Assembly (NCBI GenBank): GCA_945901085.1
Contig: CAMDJV010000010.1
Coordinates: forward strand, 1 to 64,000
Source of the DNA: Rhodovarius crocodyli
GTDB taxonomy: Bacteria; Pseudomonadota; Alphaproteobacteria; Acetobacterales; Acetobacteraceae
Length of the DNA: 64,000 nucleotides
Direction of reading: 5' to 3'
This document shows positions 36,041 through 46,844 of this stretch, piece by piece. Below the pieces are notes generated by a model that worked only from the letters and a program-made list of their open reading frames with translations, searched no databases and was not told where the DNA came from. Position 1 is the first letter of the stretch. Every line of letters begins with the position of its first letter. A program made the translations under genes and the position numbers.

Positions 36041-38848
36041 ATGGCTCTGCGTCTTCTGGTTCTGCTGCTGATGCTGCCCAGCCTTGTCCTGGGGCCAAGG
36101 CCACGCGCCCAGCAGCCCGCTGGCAGCCCGGCCACCACCTTGCCGGGCGGTGGTTTTGCGGGGGGTGCTCCGGGCACCACCCTGGCGCCGCCAGCCCTGC
36201 CATCCGTTCTGCCCGGGGGCTTGCCCCTGCCGAATATGCCGCCCGCCACCCAGCAGGACATTCTGCAACGCCTGCTCGATGCCGGTGCGGGGCGCGGGCC
36301 CGGAGCCCTGGCGCCCTCCCTGCCCCAGCCCCAACCGGGAACACCGCCGGCCTGGACCGCCCAAGGGAGCGTGCAGTGGCGCGGCCAGCAGCCTCCCCAG
36401 GCTCCCCCGGGGCCGGCACCCGGCGAAGAGCCCTTCTCGCCGGTCGAGCAATTCTTCGCCAACCGCATGCCGGTGGCTCTGCGCCAATTCGGCTATGACA
36501 GTTTCCGCAACACCCAGCCGGGCAATGCCACCGGCGTGGGCTTCGGCGCCGTGCCGGAGGATTACGTGATCGGCCGCGATGATGAGCTGGTGCTCTCCTT
36601 CCGCGGCCGCGCCCGCCACACCGTCTCCGGCCGCGTGACGCGCGAGGGGCTGCTGATGCTGCCCGAGATGCAGCCGGTGCCCGCCGCCGGGCGGACGCTG
36701 CGCGCGCTGCGGGCCGATCTCGATGCACGAGTGGCGCGCGAGTTGGCGGGCAGCGAGGTCTTCGTCTCCATCGGCCAGCTGCGCCAGGTGGCGGTGTTTG
36801 TCGGCGGCGAGGTGATGCAGCCGGGCATGGTCGTGCTCTCGCCCCTGGCCACGGTGCTCGATGCCATATTGGCGGCTGGCGGGCCGCGCCGCACCGGCTC
36901 GCTGCGCGCCATCCGGGTGGGCAATCGCAGCGTCGATCTCTACCCGGTCATCTCCGGCGATGGCGGCGAGCAGCCGGAGTTGCGCCTCGCGGAGGGCGAG
37001 CGTGTGGTCGTGCCGCCCATCGGCGCGGTGGCGGCCATTGGCGGCGAGGTGTCGCGCCCGGGGATTTATGAGCTGCCACCGGGCCGCAATGAGGCGCCGC
37101 TGGCCATGATGCTGCGCCTGGCGGGCGAGGCGCTGCGCCCGAGCGGCAACCGCTTCCTGCTGGAGACGACCGATGGCAGCGGCCGCCGCGCCTTCCGCGA
37201 GATTGCCCTGCGCGACACGCTGCGCCGCGGCGATGCGCTGCTGGTGCAGCCGGGGGTGGACGCGCAATCGGGCGGGCTGCGCCTGGGCGGGCATGTCGCA
37301 ACACCGCTGACCCGCGCGGCGGCCGGGCGTGGCGCCACGCTGCGCGGCCTGCTCAGTGACCCGCAAATGGTGCGGCCCGACCCCTATATCCGCATGGGGC
37401 TGATCTGGCGCGCCGATGCCCGCACCCGGGTGCGCCGTCTGGTGCCCTTTGACCTGGGCAAGCTGCTGACCGGCGGGCCGGATACCCGGCTGCAGGAGAA
37501 TGACGAGGTGATCCTGCTCGGCCTGCCCGATGTGCTCTGGCTGGCCAGCCCCTCGGTGCAGCGGGCGCTGCGGGGCGAGGGTGTGGACACCAACACCCAG
37601 CCCATGCCCGCGCCACAGCCCGGCCAGATGCCGCAGCCCACACCCAACCTCGTGGGCGAATGCCCGGCGCTGACCCAACTGGTGATCGCCGCGCGCGCCG
37701 CCCCCGCACGCTTCGCCCATGCCCGCGCCGCCGGCTTTCCGGATTATGGCAGCGCGCCCTGTCCGCAGATCTTCATCGACTACCCGGCCCTGCTGGCCTT
37801 CCTGCTCGACAATGCCATGCTGTTGCTCGGCGAGGTGCGGCTGCCCGGCCTTTACCCGGTGCTGGACAATACCGGGCTGGATGAGGCGCTGGCGGCGGCG
37901 GGCGGCATCACCGATACGGCCGACCTCGCCGCCATCGAATTGGCGCGCGAGCCCTCGGAGCAGGCGACCTCCATCCCGCTCAGCCGCACGGTGCTGGATT
38001 TGCGCAGCCGCAACTTCGCCGCGGTGCGGCTTTCTCCGCGCGATGCCATCCGCATCCCGCGCGGCTTCACCGATCGCGATGTCGGGCCGGTGACGCTGAT
38101 GGGCGAGTTTCTTCGCCCCGGGGTTTATGACATCCGCCGGGGCGAGCGGCTCTCAGAGCTGATCTCCCGCGCCGGTGGGCTGACACCGCAGGCCTTCCCC
38201 TATGGCGCGGTGATGACGCGTGAGACGGTGCGGCTGCGCCAGCAGGAGGGTTTCTCGCGCACCGCCACCGAGCTGGAACAGGGGCTGATGCAGGTGGCCG
38301 CCGGGCAGGCGGTGGTGGGGCGCAGCGGCAGCGGCGGCGATATCGTTGGCGCCATCACCGCCGGGCGGGAGATGGCCAATGCGCTGCGCCAGGCCCGCGC
38401 CGCGGGGCGCATGGTGGTGGAGGCCAATCCGGTGATCCTGGCCGGCCGGCCCGAATTGGATGTGCTGATGGAGCCGGGCGACCTTCTGGTGATGCCCAAG
38501 CGGCCCAATGAGGTGACGGTGGTGGGCTCGGTGCTCAATCCCGGCAGCCTGCAATTCGCCACCGGCTGGCGGGCCACGCAATATGTCCGCGCCTCAGGCG
38601 GGCCGCAGCGCTTTGCCGATGGCGGCCGGGCCTTTGTGGTGCTGCCCAATGGCACCTCCACCCCGGCGGGCTTAGGACCGTGGCAGGCGGGCGGGCCACC
38701 GGTGCCGCCGGGCTCGCTCATCGTCGTGCCGCAGGACCCCAGCCCTTACGAAAATTGGGGCATTTTGCGAGACCTGACGGCGGTGTTCGGGCAGATTGCC
38801 ATCTCGGCGGCGGCGCTGGCGGTGATCAGCCGGAATCGTGGCAATTGA
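36041..38848 (+). CDS. Polysaccharide biosynthesis/export (OPX) protein with multiple SLBB domains
   Basis: A large outer-membrane polysaccharide export protein of 935 residues. A signal peptide (MALRLLVLLLMLPSLVLGP) leads into a Pro/Gly-rich segment (about residues 25-135), then the export domain with EDYVIGRDDELVLSFRGRA and several SLBB-like repeats (VGGEVMQPGMVVLSPLATVL, IGGEVSRPGIYELP, MGEFLRPGVYDIRRGERL, VVGSVLNPGSLQFA). A C-terminal hydrophobic segment (about residues 910-930) matches the membrane-spanning ends of OPX proteins. It is followed by the YjbH-like gene and divergent from the heparinase-like gene; no glycosyltransferases or Wzc are in view. Confidence 0.9.
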   Translation: MALRLLVLLLMLPSLVLGPRPRAQQPAGSPATTLPGGGFAGGAPGTTLAPPALPSVLPGGLPLPNMPPATQQDILQRLLDAGAGRGPGALAPSLPQPQPGTPPAWTAQGSVQWRGQQPPQAPPGPAPGEEPFSPVEQFFANRMPVALRQFGYDSFRNTQPGNATGVGFGAVPEDYVIGRDDELVLSFRGRARHTVSGRVTREGLLMLPEMQPVPAAGRTLRALRADLDARVARELAGSEVFVSIGQLRQVAVFVGGEVMQPGMVVLSPLATVLDAILAAGGPRRTGSLRAIRVGNRSVDLYPVISGDGGEQPELRLAEGERVVVPPIGAVAAIGGEVSRPGIYELPPGRNEAPLAMMLRLAGEALRPSGNRFLLETTDGSGRRAFREIALRDTLRRGDALLVQPGVDAQSGGLRLGGHVATPLTRAAAGRGATLRGLLSDPQMVRPDPYIRMGLIWRADARTRVRRLVPFDLGKLLTGGPDTRLQENDEVILLGLPDVLWLASPSVQRALRGEGVDTNTQPMPAPQPGQMPQPTPNLVGECPALTQLVIAARAAPARFAHARAAGFPDYGSAPCPQIFIDYPALLAFLLDNAMLLLGEVRLPGLYPVLDNTGLDEALAAAGGITDTADLAAIELAREPSEQATSIPLSRTVLDLRSRNFAAVRLSPRDAIRIPRGFTDRDVGPVTLMGEFLRPGVYDIRRGERLSELISRAGGLTPQAFPYGAVMTRETVRLRQQEGFSRTATELEQGLMQVAAGQAVVGRSGSGGDIVGAITAGREMANALRQARAAGRMVVEANPVILAGRPELDVLMEPGDLLVMPKRPNEVTVVGSVLNPGSLQFATGWRATQYVRASGGPQRFADGGRAFVVLPNGTSTPAGLGPWQAGGPPVPPGSLIVVPQDPSPYENWGILRDLTAVFGQIAISAAALAVISRNRGN

Positions 38849-38896
38849 GCGCGCGGTGGCACTGGGCGCGGGCCCGGTCGGCCTGCGGCTGATCGG

Positions 38897-41095
38897 GTGG
38901 GTCGGCAGGGTATCAGGGCGCTTGGCGCGGCGCTGCCCCGTGCGGCGCTGCCCCGTGCGGCACTGCTCTGGGCGGCGCTGCCCCGTGCGGCGGTGCCCCG
39001 TGCGGCACTGCTCTGGGCGGCACTGCTGGCAGAACCCGCCTGGCCGGAAGAGGCGGTTGAGCCCTCGGGCGCCAATTTCGGCGGCATGGGGCTGGTGGAA
39101 AGCCGCAATGCCCGCATGCGCGCCGATGGCACCATCGAGGCCGGTGCCTCCCAGCGGCATCAGCGCCGCTTCAGCTTCATCAACTGGCAGGCTCTGCCGT
39201 GGCTGGAGGCCACCTTCCGCCTGACCGACAGGCTGAACGCCACCACCGGCCACGGCAAGACCACCGACCGCGCCTTCGACCTGCGCGCCCGGCTCTGGGA
39301 GGAGAATAACTGGCGGCCAGCCCTGGCGGTGGGGGTGCAGGATGCCATCGGCACCGGCATCTATGCCGCCGAGTATATTGTAGGCAGCAAGAGGTTTTGG
39401 GATTTCGACCTCACGCTCGGCATGGGCTGGGGGCGGCTGGCCACCGGCAGCGACCTGCCCAACCCGCTGGGCTATGGGCTTTCATCCTTCAACACCCGCC
39501 CCCGCCAGGTGGGCCAGGGTGGCGTGCCGGCTTTCAACACGTTGTTTCGTGGGCAGCGGGTGGACCTCTTCGGCGGGGTGGAGTGGAATGTGCCGGAGAT
39601 TCCCACGCCCTTTGGCGGGATCACGGGGCTTCGGGTGAAGCTGGAATATTCCGCCGATGCGCTGCGCGACGAGCGCGGTGGCTATCCCGCCCGCAGCACT
39701 GCCCTGCGCGGGCGGGCAGAGACGCGATTCAATGCCGGGCTGCAATGGAGCAATGAGTTCTTCGATATTGGTGCCAGCTTCGTGCATGGCACCGATGCCG
39801 TGCTGCGGCTGAGCCTGCGGCTGGACCCGCTGAACCCGCCGGAATTTCGCCGCGCACCGCCGCCGCTGATGGTGCCACGGCCCGAGCCGGTGGAGGAATT
39901 CACCAATGAAAGCGTGGCCATGGCGCTCTTCCCCGCGCTGCGGGAGGCAGGTTTTACCCCGCTGGGCTTGGATATTCGCGATGATGAGGCGGTGGTGACG
40001 GTGAGCGGCGGGCGGTTTCGCACCCTGGCGCAGATGGCCGCAAGGGTGGCGCGCGCCGCCCAGCCGCATGTGCCGGCCACGATTGAGCGCATCCGTGTGG
40101 TGCATGAGCGTGCCGGGGCGACGATTGGCCGGGTGGTGATTCTGCGCGAGGCGATGGAGGCGGCGGCCTGGGGCAGCGGCAGCGCCGAGGAGGTGTTTGG
40201 CAGCGCTCAATTGCTGGCGGCGATGCCTGAGGCGGGCGGGTTTAGGGTGCCGCCACCGCATCTCGCCTGGGGCATCGAGCCGCGGCTGAAGCTGCAATTG
40301 GGCGACCCTCAGCAAAGCCTGCGCTACCAGCTGGGGGCGGCCGCTGGCGGGCGGCTGGAGCTGGGCTGGGGGATCGTCATGGCGGGTGCCGTGCAGCAAA
40401 CCCTGGTGCAGAATATGGACCAGGGCCTGCCCAGCAATTCCGCCCTGGCGCATGTGCGCAGCGACTTTGCCCGCTATGCCAGGGCGGGCACCACATCCAT
40501 CCCGGCGCTTTATGTTGAGCGGATGTGGAACCCGGCACCGGATTGGTTTGCGCGGTTGAGCGCGGGGCTGCTGGAGCCGATGTTTGCCGGCGGTGGGGCT
40601 GAGTTGCTGTGGCGGCCGCATGATTCCGCCCTGGCGCTGGGGGTGGATGTGAATGTGCTGGCGCAACGGCATTATCGCCAGCGTTTCGCGATGCTTGGGT
40701 ACAACACGGTGACCGGCCATGCCTCGGCCTATTGGGATACGCCGTGGTGGAACATCTACACCGTGCTGCGGGCGGGGCGTTATTTGGCGGGTGATTGGGG
40801 GACGACATTGGAGGTGGGACGGCGCTTTGACAGCGGCGTGGAGATTGGCGGTTTTGCCACCTTTACCAATGTCGCCTTCAGCCGGTTTGGTGAGGGGAGT
40901 TTTGACAAGGGGGTTTTCATTCGCATTCCCTTTGACCTGTTTGGGCCGAGCACGCAGGCGCGCGCCAATTTGAATTTTCGCACGGTGCAGCGCGATGGCG
41001 GCCAAAGGTTGAGTGTGGATAACCCGCTATGGGATGTGTCGCGCGATGGCAGGGCGGATGCGCTTCGCGCTGGGTTTGGCGGCTTTGGCCGCTGA
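38897..41095 (+). CDS. YjbH-like exopolysaccharide outer-membrane protein with repeat-built signal peptide
   Basis: A predicted outer-membrane beta-barrel of 732 residues related to YjbH, which in enterobacteria acts with an OPX protein in exopolysaccharide export. The only start without an upstream in-frame alternative is GTG at 38897, 48 nt after the OPX stop. Residues 11-45 are seven consecutive 5-residue units (AALPR, AALPR, AALLW, AALPR, AAVPR, AALLW, AALLA) coded by 15-bp tandem repeats, and they form the hydrophobic part of the signal peptide. The mature part begins near SGANFGGMGL, with YjbH-type blocks such as TTDRAFDLRARLWEE. The barrel ends near 41095 with NPLWDVSRDGRADALRAGFG. Confidence 0.85.
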   Translation: MGRQGIRALGAALPRAALPRAALLWAALPRAAVPRAALLWAALLAEPAWPEEAVEPSGANFGGMGLVESRNARMRADGTIEAGASQRHQRRFSFINWQALPWLEATFRLTDRLNATTGHGKTTDRAFDLRARLWEENNWRPALAVGVQDAIGTGIYAAEYIVGSKRFWDFDLTLGMGWGRLATGSDLPNPLGYGLSSFNTRPRQVGQGGVPAFNTLFRGQRVDLFGGVEWNVPEIPTPFGGITGLRVKLEYSADALRDERGGYPARSTALRGRAETRFNAGLQWSNEFFDIGASFVHGTDAVLRLSLRLDPLNPPEFRRAPPPLMVPRPEPVEEFTNESVAMALFPALREAGFTPLGLDIRDDEAVVTVSGGRFRTLAQMAARVARAAQPHVPATIERIRVVHERAGATIGRVVILREAMEAAAWGSGSAEEVFGSAQLLAAMPEAGGFRVPPPHLAWGIEPRLKLQLGDPQQSLRYQLGAAAGGRLELGWGIVMAGAVQQTLVQNMDQGLPSNSALAHVRSDFARYARAGTTSIPALYVERMWNPAPDWFARLSAGLLEPMFAGGGAELLWRPHDSALALGVDVNVLAQRHYRQRFAMLGYNTVTGHASAYWDTPWWNIYTVLRAGRYLAGDWGTTLEVGRRFDSGVEIGGFATFTNVAFSRFGEGSFDKGVFIRIPFDLFGPSTQARANLNFRTVQRDGGQRLSVDNPLWDVSRDGRADALRAGFGGFGR
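38927..39031 (+). repeat. 15-bp tandem repeat, seven units, inside the YjbH-like signal peptide
   Basis: Seven 15-bp units run in frame. Consensus GCGGCGCTGCCCCGT, with a second type GCGGCACTGCTCTGG at units 3 and 6. Because the unit is five codons, gain or loss of units would lengthen or shorten the signal peptide without a frameshift. Confidence 0.9.
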
Positions 41096-44397: not shown

Positions 44398-44843
44398 CAG
44401 CCCACTCCGATAAAGAGAAACCCAGGCAACATGCCGATCGACTCGCTGAACGCCTGCCTCGTCAGTCTTCGTTCATGCACATCGTGACTAAAATACACAT
44501 TTTTACGCATTTTTGAAGACACAAAATTCATCCCTGCGTTTCAAAAAAGCACAGCCTGGGTGCTTGGGGCTCGACATCTCTCCACCCACCCCCACCGAAA
44601 CGCGCGCAGCTCCCACCGCAGGTTTCTCTTTGCCCAAAAACAAGGCGGCCAAACACAATCCGCCCGAACACAATCCGCCCAAACACAATCCGCCCAAACA
44701 CAACCCGGAGGAATAATTCCCATTCCTCAATACGCAATTCAATATGCTGGATGCGGCATTCCAGTGGCAAGCGCCAATGATGCGCATAACGAGGCAAATG
44801 AGCCAGGCAGCATCCTGGCTTTGCGCTATTTTTGGGCAATGTC
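44398..44843. other. Gene-free spacer with minisatellite
   Basis: These 446 nt lie between the receiver-hybrid gene and the RTX fragment. No convincing gene is seen on either strand. The short open frames are generated by the 15-bp repeat at 44636-44710. The interior may contain the recombination breakpoint that truncated the RTX gene. Confidence 0.6.
44636..44710 (-). repeat. 15-bp minisatellite, five units
   Basis: Three near-identical units at 44651-44695 (minus-strand consensus GGGCGGATTGTGTTT), flanked by one degenerate unit on each side. Non-coding as far as can be seen. The unit length equals that of the coding repeat at 38927-39031, but the sequences are only loosely similar. Confidence 0.85.
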
Positions 44844-45065
44844 TCACGCTGGGATGCAACCCATGGCGCCGCCGCTCTTCTGTGCGCGGGCCATGTTGAG
44901 GCTGGTGGCGACAGCAGCCGCGGCGCTGGCGTAGCGGGCGGTATCAATGCCTTCACCGCCCTCGAGTGCATCATTGCCCGCGCCGGCATCAAGCGTGTCG
45001 TCATCCGCAGTGCCAGACAGCACATTGTTGTTGCCATCACCCAAAATAATCTGACCGATAGCCAT
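44844..45065 (-). pseudogene. Truncated RTX/hemolysin-type calcium-binding protein fragment
   Basis: A 73-residue frame from ATG 45065, with GCAGGAA 6-8 nt upstream. It starts MAIGQIILGDGNNNVLSGTA and continues with DDDTLDAGAGNDALEGGEG, the glycine/aspartate nonapeptide pattern that binds calcium in RTX proteins, then DTARYASAAAAVATSLN, the linker usual between RTX blocks. It stops where the next repeat should begin (GGAMGCIPA). Full RTX proteins have many repeats and a C-terminal type I secretion signal, so this is read as the N-terminal remnant of a larger gene. The start and ribosome site are intact, so a small product may still be made. Confidence 0.7.
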
Positions 45066-45425
45066 GGCGTTGTTCCTGCGTGACCACCCAGAATGCCGTG
45101 TACCCAAGTTAAATGAAAAATCTAATAGCGTTTTGAGCCTCTGTGATAACGAAAGACAATCAATGAATTTGCGGCCCTTGGCGTGTTTCGGGGCGGTTGC
45201 GCGAGCCGGCCGCGAAGCGCAGCGACATTCGTGGCCAAGGCACTGGCTTTCTGTTTTCCCGCATTTTCCGGTCCGCCTTGCGAGGCCGCAAGGCTTGAAA
45301 ATGCTATGAACTGCAAACCGGTTGCCACACCTTATTGAATGTAGCAGCCTAAGGTTCCGTGGTGCGCCATCGGCCCGCCAACCCACCGCCGCCCAGGCCG
45401 GCCCGTTTGACAAGCAGCAATATAG
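45066..45425. other. Divergent spacer between RTX remnant and histidine kinase
   Basis: About 360 nt with no recognisable gene, terminator or repeat. It should hold the promoters of the histidine kinase and of the RTX remnant. Confidence 0.6.
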
Positions 45426-46844
45426 GTGAAGTTTTTGCGCCCGCCCCCTAAAAATCAATTTAATGTGCTACCGACCAGTCGCTTTATGTTTTTAGTTATA
45501 TTTATAGTATTTCCGATATTTGTATTTATTGGCATGTACGGCATAATTTTAGTTGCCGCGTATCTCGGAAATTTTGATAAAATTTTTACGTTGTCCGATA
45601 ATTGGCAATACCCCATAGTAAAAATACTCGGTATACCAATGATTATATTTTTTGTACCCGTGGTGATAATTGTAAATTACATCACATACATTTCTATACT
45701 AAGATTTTTCCAGCGTGAGCGTCGAGAATATTTTGGCAAAGTAGAACTTATTATTGAAAGTCTGCCAGCGAGCCTATTCCTTCGGCAGGTCAACGGCGAT
45801 GGCAGCTCACAATTGATATATCGGGGCGGCCGATATCATGAGGTCTACCGCACCCGCGATGATGATGCTCGTTTCGATGGCGATATTTTTTCCCTCTCGG
45901 TCGGCTATCAAAAAGCTGTTGAAACCTATCTGGCATGCCTCAGGGATGGCGAGACGGTGTTGGAATGGGAGTTCCTGCGCCCCGATAAGCCGAGTTGCTG
46001 GATCCGCTCCTATTTCAAAACGGTGAGCCTTGATGGCAATGGCGGCGGTGAAATTATCGGCTTTGGCCTCAATATTGACCGCGAGCGGGAAGTAGCCCTG
46101 CGCAACGTCCACGCCATTCGCATGAGTTCGCTGGGCGAAATGGCCTCCTCCATCGCGCATGAACTCAAGCAACCGCTACAGACCTTGTCGCTTGCGGCGG
46201 AAATCACGATGATGCAATCGGTCGGCCACCCTGTTCCGGCGATCAATACGCAGTTGGAGACCATCATCAACCAGGCCCGGCGGGCAGCGGATGTCATCGA
46301 GCATTTGCGGCGGTTTTCCCGCGGCGATGTGCCCAATGAGCCACCCCGCCCGGTTGATCTGCGCAAGGCGATCGAAGGCGCATTGGCGCTGGTCGGCGCG
46401 TATCTGCGCGCCTCGGGCATTACCGTGACATTCAATGACAACACGAATATTACCCTGCTGGCGCATGAGATTTCCCTGCAACAGGCCCTCACCAACATCT
46501 TTATCAATGCACGCGACGCCATGCATGATCTGCCGCCGGGCAAAATCCGGCAATTGCGGATCGCCACCCGGCGCCGGGGCGACCAATTGGCCGAAATCAC
46601 CATCAGCGACACCGGAGGCGGCATAGACACCTCGATCTTGCCACGGCTTTTCCAACCCTTCGTGACCACCAAAAGCACGGATGCCGGCACCGGCCTCGGC
46701 TTGTCGATCTGCCACGGCTTGCTCACTGCGATGTCGTTCAAGATCAGCGCCCACAACACCGCAGAGGGCGCGCAATTCACCATCACCGGCCCGGCAGAGC
46801 GGGCCTCGGCCGGGCAAATCCAGTCTCCATCCACCGGGGTTTGA
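45426..46844 (+). CDS. Membrane sensor histidine kinase
   Basis: A two-component kinase of 472 residues. Two membrane helices lie at about 21-47 and 66-92 with a short loop between them, so it probably senses within or near the membrane. A PAS-like region (about 105-215) follows, then HisKA with His245 in SSIAHELKQPLQTLSL, and an intact ATPase: N box NIFINARDAMHD, G1 DTGGGID, F box PFVTTKS, G2 GTGLGLSI. The start is GTG at 45426; an ATG at 45486 would begin at the first helix. The first 300 nt are AT-rich. The likely partners are the regulators at 42253 and 43246, encoded divergently. Confidence 0.92.
   Translation: MKFLRPPPKNQFNVLPTSRFMFLVIFIVFPIFVFIGMYGIILVAAYLGNFDKIFTLSDNWQYPIVKILGIPMIIFFVPVVIIVNYITYISILRFFQRERREYFGKVELIIESLPASLFLRQVNGDGSSQLIYRGGRYHEVYRTRDDDARFDGDIFSLSVGYQKAVETYLACLRDGETVLEWEFLRPDKPSCWIRSYFKTVSLDGNGGGEIIGFGLNIDREREVALRNVHAIRMSSLGEMASSIAHELKQPLQTLSLAAEITMMQSVGHPVPAINTQLETIINQARRAADVIEHLRRFSRGDVPNEPPRPVDLRKAIEGALALVGAYLRASGITVTFNDNTNITLLAHEISLQQALTNIFINARDAMHDLPPGKIRQLRIATRRRGDQLAEITISDTGGGIDTSILPRLFQPFVTTKSTDAGTGLGLSICHGLLTAMSFKISAHNTAEGAQFTITGPAERASAGQIQSPSTGV

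Follow-up and report, generated by a model that had tools for sequence, protein, structure and literature searches.

An in-frame tandem array in the signal-peptide region of the yjbH/gfcD-like gene most plausibly reflects a recent local tandem duplication downstream of the polysaccharide-export (OPX) gene and ahead of the conserved hydrophobic core of the signal peptide, tolerated in a fast-changing stretch (rough probability 0.6). The array would have been retained because its 15- and 45-bp units hold the frame and because the stretch appears to be under little constraint. Translation starting at GTG 38897 would then produce a lengthy signal peptide (some 45 residues with cleavage after LLA), in which an Arg- and Pro-bearing n-region derived from the repeat precedes a 10-residue core of normal type. 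Added or lost units would presumably make this n-region longer or shorter and alter its charge, affecting export mildly at most.

The yjbH gene and its surroundings

The array lies in the 64-kb window, that is, the whole stretch of DNA analysed. Its immediate surroundings and its constituent parts are as follows.

36041 to 38848, plus strand: OPX/SLBB polysaccharide-export gene, 935 aa (SLBB 1.5e-33, Poly_export 4.5e-8)
38872 to 38898, plus strand: 12-bp hairpin with three G-U pairs, running into GTG 38897 (2 of 3 local folds)
38897 to 41095, plus strand: yjbH/gfcD-like gene, 732 aa from GTG 38897 (PF06082 match)
38897 to 38926, plus strand: possible n-region VGRQGIRALG preceding the array, if translation starts at GTG 38897
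38927 to 38971, plus strand: first 45-bp copy (AALPR AALPR AALLW)
38972 to 39016, plus strand: second 45-bp copy (AALPR AAVPR AALLW), 44/45 identical to the first
38993 to 38995, plus strand: internal in-frame GTG that could serve as another start, 29 residues ahead of the conserved GG
39002 to 39031, plus strand: hydrophobic core AALLWAALLA, made of the last full unit and the partial unit (hydropathy, low-confidence helix 32-44)
39032 to 39079, plus strand: region of probable cleavage where the mature chain would begin, reading EPAWPEEAVEPSGANF ahead of GG (putative cut site)

Judged from its sequence, the product is a YjbH/GfcD-type outer-membrane dual-barrel exopolysaccharide protein with a predicted role in polysaccharide export. 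The PF06082 (YjbH) profile matches across the whole chain (E 5.1e-166; residues 59-714; 554.7 bits against a cut-off of 24; profile positions 3-655 of 658), and the OPX gene lies directly upstream, its stop codon sharing the yjbH frame. This match and the in-frame position of the array at the 5′ end of the gene bear out the placement by the earlier note of the array in the signal-peptide region of a YjbH-like exopolysaccharide protein. A structure model built from 29 aligned proteins (mean pLDDT 79.7) contains 12 strands at residues 80-309, a mixed part at 337-436 and 13 strands at 455-694, as counted from the strand list. The strand count alone would correspond to two β-barrels and an α/β middle domain, and the strand order agrees with the dual-barrel picture of GfcD/YjbH given in the available parts of two papers (PMC8592465, PMC9603273). 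Among named organisms, Rhodovarius lipocyclicus, R. crocodyli and a Rhodovarius MAG come closest, with 64-69% identity.

No NCBIfam match was obtained for the opposite-strand ORF at 38672-39253, and near copies of the two-gene OPX-yjbH stretch were sought among plasmids without a match.

For comparison, 35 matching genomes were considered, with loci for 30 matches (L003-L032); matches without a locus were left out. Relatives were anchored on the conserved GG-x-GL motif. L031 and L032 hold part of the gene only and were excluded from analyses of the front end, L034 could not be anchored, and L022 was anchored just with a slightly wider motif, giving 28 relatives for hydropathy and starts and 29 for arrays and gaps.

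Organization of the array

The array is a coding minisatellite in the signal-peptide region, and any function it has is putative. At 38927-39026, TRF describes it either as 6.7 copies of 15 bp (83% match, score 130) or as 2.2 copies of 45 bp (96%, score 186), and the 45-bp unit (AALPR-AALPR-AALLW) is the better description. Read in the frame of ORF 38897-41095, positions 38927-39031 encode AALPR AALPR AALLW AALPR AAVPR AALLW AALLA. This AAB-AA′B-B″ layout is naturally described as a 45-bp duplication superimposed on an older 15-bp duplication. The sole base distinguishing the two 45-bp copies turns a CTG of the first into GTG 38993 of the second. It had previously been noted that seven in-frame 15-bp units encode AALPR, AALLW and AALLA pentapeptides. 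Six of these units are full and the seventh (within 38927-39031) is only partial; the pentapeptides are present in frame, except that one unit reads AAVPR. The accompanying point that five-codon units keep the frame holds for both the 15- and the 45-bp units (TRF, ORF list).

The array is real, its score of 186 lying far above those of shuffled sequences. When the 64-kb window was shuffled by dinucleotides 100 times the top score was 78, and 500 shuffles of the ORF codons gave no more than 68. Collapsed or added copies, introduced by the assembly, are a very improbable source of part of the repeat. The assembly is a draft in 91 contigs, but the array is just 100 bp long, the copies can be told apart by their differences, and no stop interrupts the frame.

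Anatomy of the signal peptide

By hydropathy only, the encoded N-terminus has the order expected of a Sec signal peptide, a positive n-region followed by a hydrophobic core. AALLWAALLA, with a Kyte-Doolittle value of 2.33, is the sole strongly hydrophobic 10-residue window; RAALLWAALL reaches 1.70 and every window containing Pro-Arg stays at or below 1.21. The best window of the 28 anchored relatives ranges from 2.21 to 3.82, and falls below that of the array protein in three of them. In the structure model, the longest N-terminal helix is called with low confidence at residues 32-44, while residues 1-30 have pLDDT below 50 and include a short helix at 22-26. Hydropathy and this weak helix at 32-44 together suggest that the core consists of the last full unit and the partial unit, with the earlier units forming an n-region-like run-up. 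Thus, of the idea that the units make up the hydrophobic core, the last ten residues survive, and the Pro-Arg windows further upstream instead break such a core. The related proposal that slippage alters the core in five-residue steps fails, since the core is set by these ten residues and the upstream units hold Arg and Pro. Gain or loss of upstream units would alter the length and charge of the n-region and leave the core unchanged. Cleavage could fall between LLA and EPAWP, although by eye this site has no clear A-x-A motif.

Choice of translation start

The conserved GG lies 61 residues downstream of GTG 38897 and 29 residues downstream of GTG 38993. A start codon is found 26-48 residues before GG in 22 of the 28 relatives, and in the remaining six the nearest start lies 21 (L027), 51 (L029), 57 (L012), 64 (L008), 67 (L010) or 99 (L028) residues before it. 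An ATG occupies the 26-48 interval in just 10 of 28, so that the GTG start, which the earlier note had listed as an oddity, is hardly one. Two further possible starts near the OPX stop, TTG 38845 and GTG 38856, are outside the yjbH frame by reading.

Translation could alternatively begin at GTG 38993, within the second 45-bp copy, the signal sequence then being short (MPRAALLWAALLA). What is left of the array would be a spacer between the OPX stop and the yjbH start, and the number of units would set a distance rather than a protein. The 29 residues before GG equal the nearest-start distance in L033 (69% identical, taken as R. crocodyli on the agreement of its coordinates with those of L037), GTG 38993 coincides with the one difference between the 45-bp copies, and the upstream hairpin touches GTG 38897 in two of the three local folds. 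However, the signal peptide would be just 13 residues long if cut after LLA, which is shorter than usual; GTG 38993 has no Shine-Dalgarno-like site (3 of 6); and distances of 51-67 residues are also the nearest option in four of the 28 relatives (L008, L010, L012, L029). The match before GTG 38897 is likewise 3 of 6, neither being clear. This internal start is rather unlikely, and GTG 38897 is tentatively favoured over it because GTG 38993 leaves a very short signal.

With GTG 38897 as the start, subtraction of five units by count leaves 36 residues before GG, a value within the 26-48 range of 22 of the 28 relatives.

RNA structure was also considered as a function of the array and rejected, the region 38849-39060 folding no better than its shuffles (z -0.20).

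History of the stretch in related genes

No comparable array is present in the matching stretch of the relatives: none of the 29 anchored ones has an array scoring above 63, against 186 here. Of the 30 anchored yjbH genes, counting the present one, just 1 thus has such an array, which is probably recent. A search of the genus covered nine genomes and gave six matches, of which the closest other one is 68-69% identical, none being near enough to represent the same species.

The distance from the OPX stop to the core ranges from 8 to 305 nt across relatives, is at most 44 nt in 12 of 29, and is 153 nt here. The OPX stop was located by a rough rule, that of the longest open frame. The rule failed for L028, and the stop could be misplaced where the frame is shorter than about 300 aa (L017, L018, L022, L025, L030). 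In five relatives (L004, L009, L010, L015, L035) the OPX-yjbH gap contains large, unrelated palindromic blocks whose perfect stems measure 17-24 bp and whose fold z-scores run from -8.6 to -13.5. The variable gap length and these palindromic blocks suggest that the front of the signal peptide is rebuilt often and by different means. Since an ATG is missing around the signal peptide of some palindrome-bearing relatives, the palindrome itself may encode the front of that peptide.

The palindrome core, GGGGGCGCTGCCCCC, is dispersed in several genomes, with 79 copies in G063, 37 in G138 and 16 in G072. Copies also sit beside the yjbH match, namely the only copy of G036, two of three in G154, two of four in G155 and one of three in G088. 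An origin of the array from this palindrome was considered and rejected: it shares GGCGCTGCCCC with the repeat unit, yet 0 copies of GGGGGCGCTGCCCCC occur in the present genome.

Comparison with known systems

Neisseria opa genes carry CTCTT repeats in the leader-peptide coding region that shift the frame (PMC3960869, PMC3899988, PMC13183285). As described in the available portions of these papers, they resemble the yjbH array in that the tandem units lie where an outer-membrane protein gene encodes its signal peptide. They differ in that the 5-nt unit shifts the frame and acts as an on/off switch, whereas the 15-nt unit of yjbH keeps the frame and its repeats carry Pro-Arg. On/off frame switching of the phase-variable type does not arise here, as 15 and 45 bp preserve the frame.

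In-frame length variants of signal peptides have been described for APOB (Leu-Ala-Leu, PMC4201729) and PCSK9 (Leu repeats, PMC2034530). According to the parts of these reports at hand, residues are gained or lost in frame within the signal peptide, as the yjbH array would allow, but the genes are human or primate, the variable residues are hydrophobic and the variation is documented. GfcD/YjbH proteins share with the present gene the family, the domain order and the adjoining OPX gene. Unlike in the present gene, no signal-peptide repeat is mentioned in the accessible sections of PMC8592465 and PMC9603273, and GfcD is cut after residue 21, signal peptidase I acting between A21 and E22 (PMC8592465). 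Autotransporters likewise have an unusually long N-terminal signal sequence, but they are another protein class, and the abstract of PMC2805444 makes no mention of tandem repeats. Among the titles and excerpts returned by a literature search on repeats in signal peptides, opa, Helicobacter oipA and PCSK9 were found, and no YjbH case.

It was suggested in the earlier note that a slipping array could tune YjbH secretion stepwise, which would be a graded form of phase variation. Slippage itself is plausible, given the in-frame units, the 44/45 identity of the 45-bp copies and a pair of adjacent 15-bp units that are the same, and the APOB and PCSK9 changes in signal-peptide length have been linked with phenotypes, as far as the excerpts of PMC4201729 and PMC2034530 go. 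Nevertheless, the length of the core is independent of the number of preceding units and the array is confined to a single one of the 30 anchored genes; such tuning is improbable. More doubtful still is a broader proposal in which the in-frame minisatellite serves as a dial of length and charge on exopolysaccharide porin export, with a second start made by the duplication and the number of units setting both start and export. If the number of units did vary and change export, the array would do by degrees, and in frame, what the opa repeats of Neisseria do as an on/off switch. For the present, it cleanly illustrates how freely a signal-peptide front can be rebuilt with the 10-residue core and the mature chain preserved.

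Other arrays and copies in the genome

Within a sample of 464 kb (the window and 20 stretches of 20 kb), the yjbH array ranks third in strength. That so strong an array falls exactly on a signal peptide could mean selection, and counts against the near-neutral reading preferred above. The strongest array of the sample, at L060 5383-5630, comprises three copies of 82 bp and is rich in G and C runs. Three further 15-bp arrays score at least 80 (window 44632-44707, L061 3866-3922 and L048 1285-1340), which indicates that such arrays are not peculiar to the yjbH gene.

The one at 44632-44707 has 5.1 copies of GCCCAAACACAATCC and on the minus strand translates as repeated FGRIV; its surrounding ORF gave no match to Pfam and NCBIfam profiles. 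Nearby, the minus-strand ORF at 44844-45458, which resembles a fragment, contains a short stretch of calcium-binding (RTX-type) repeats, with weak matches far under the curated cut-offs.

A dispersed element was considered as well and rejected, as a degenerate two-unit pattern matches only the yjbH array genome-wide (6 overlapping matches). A DNA search of the genome returned a sole other site, 28 bp on C44, whose frame encodes GAALLWAVLLV and which thus probably owes its similarity to the codons chosen for a hydrophobic helix.
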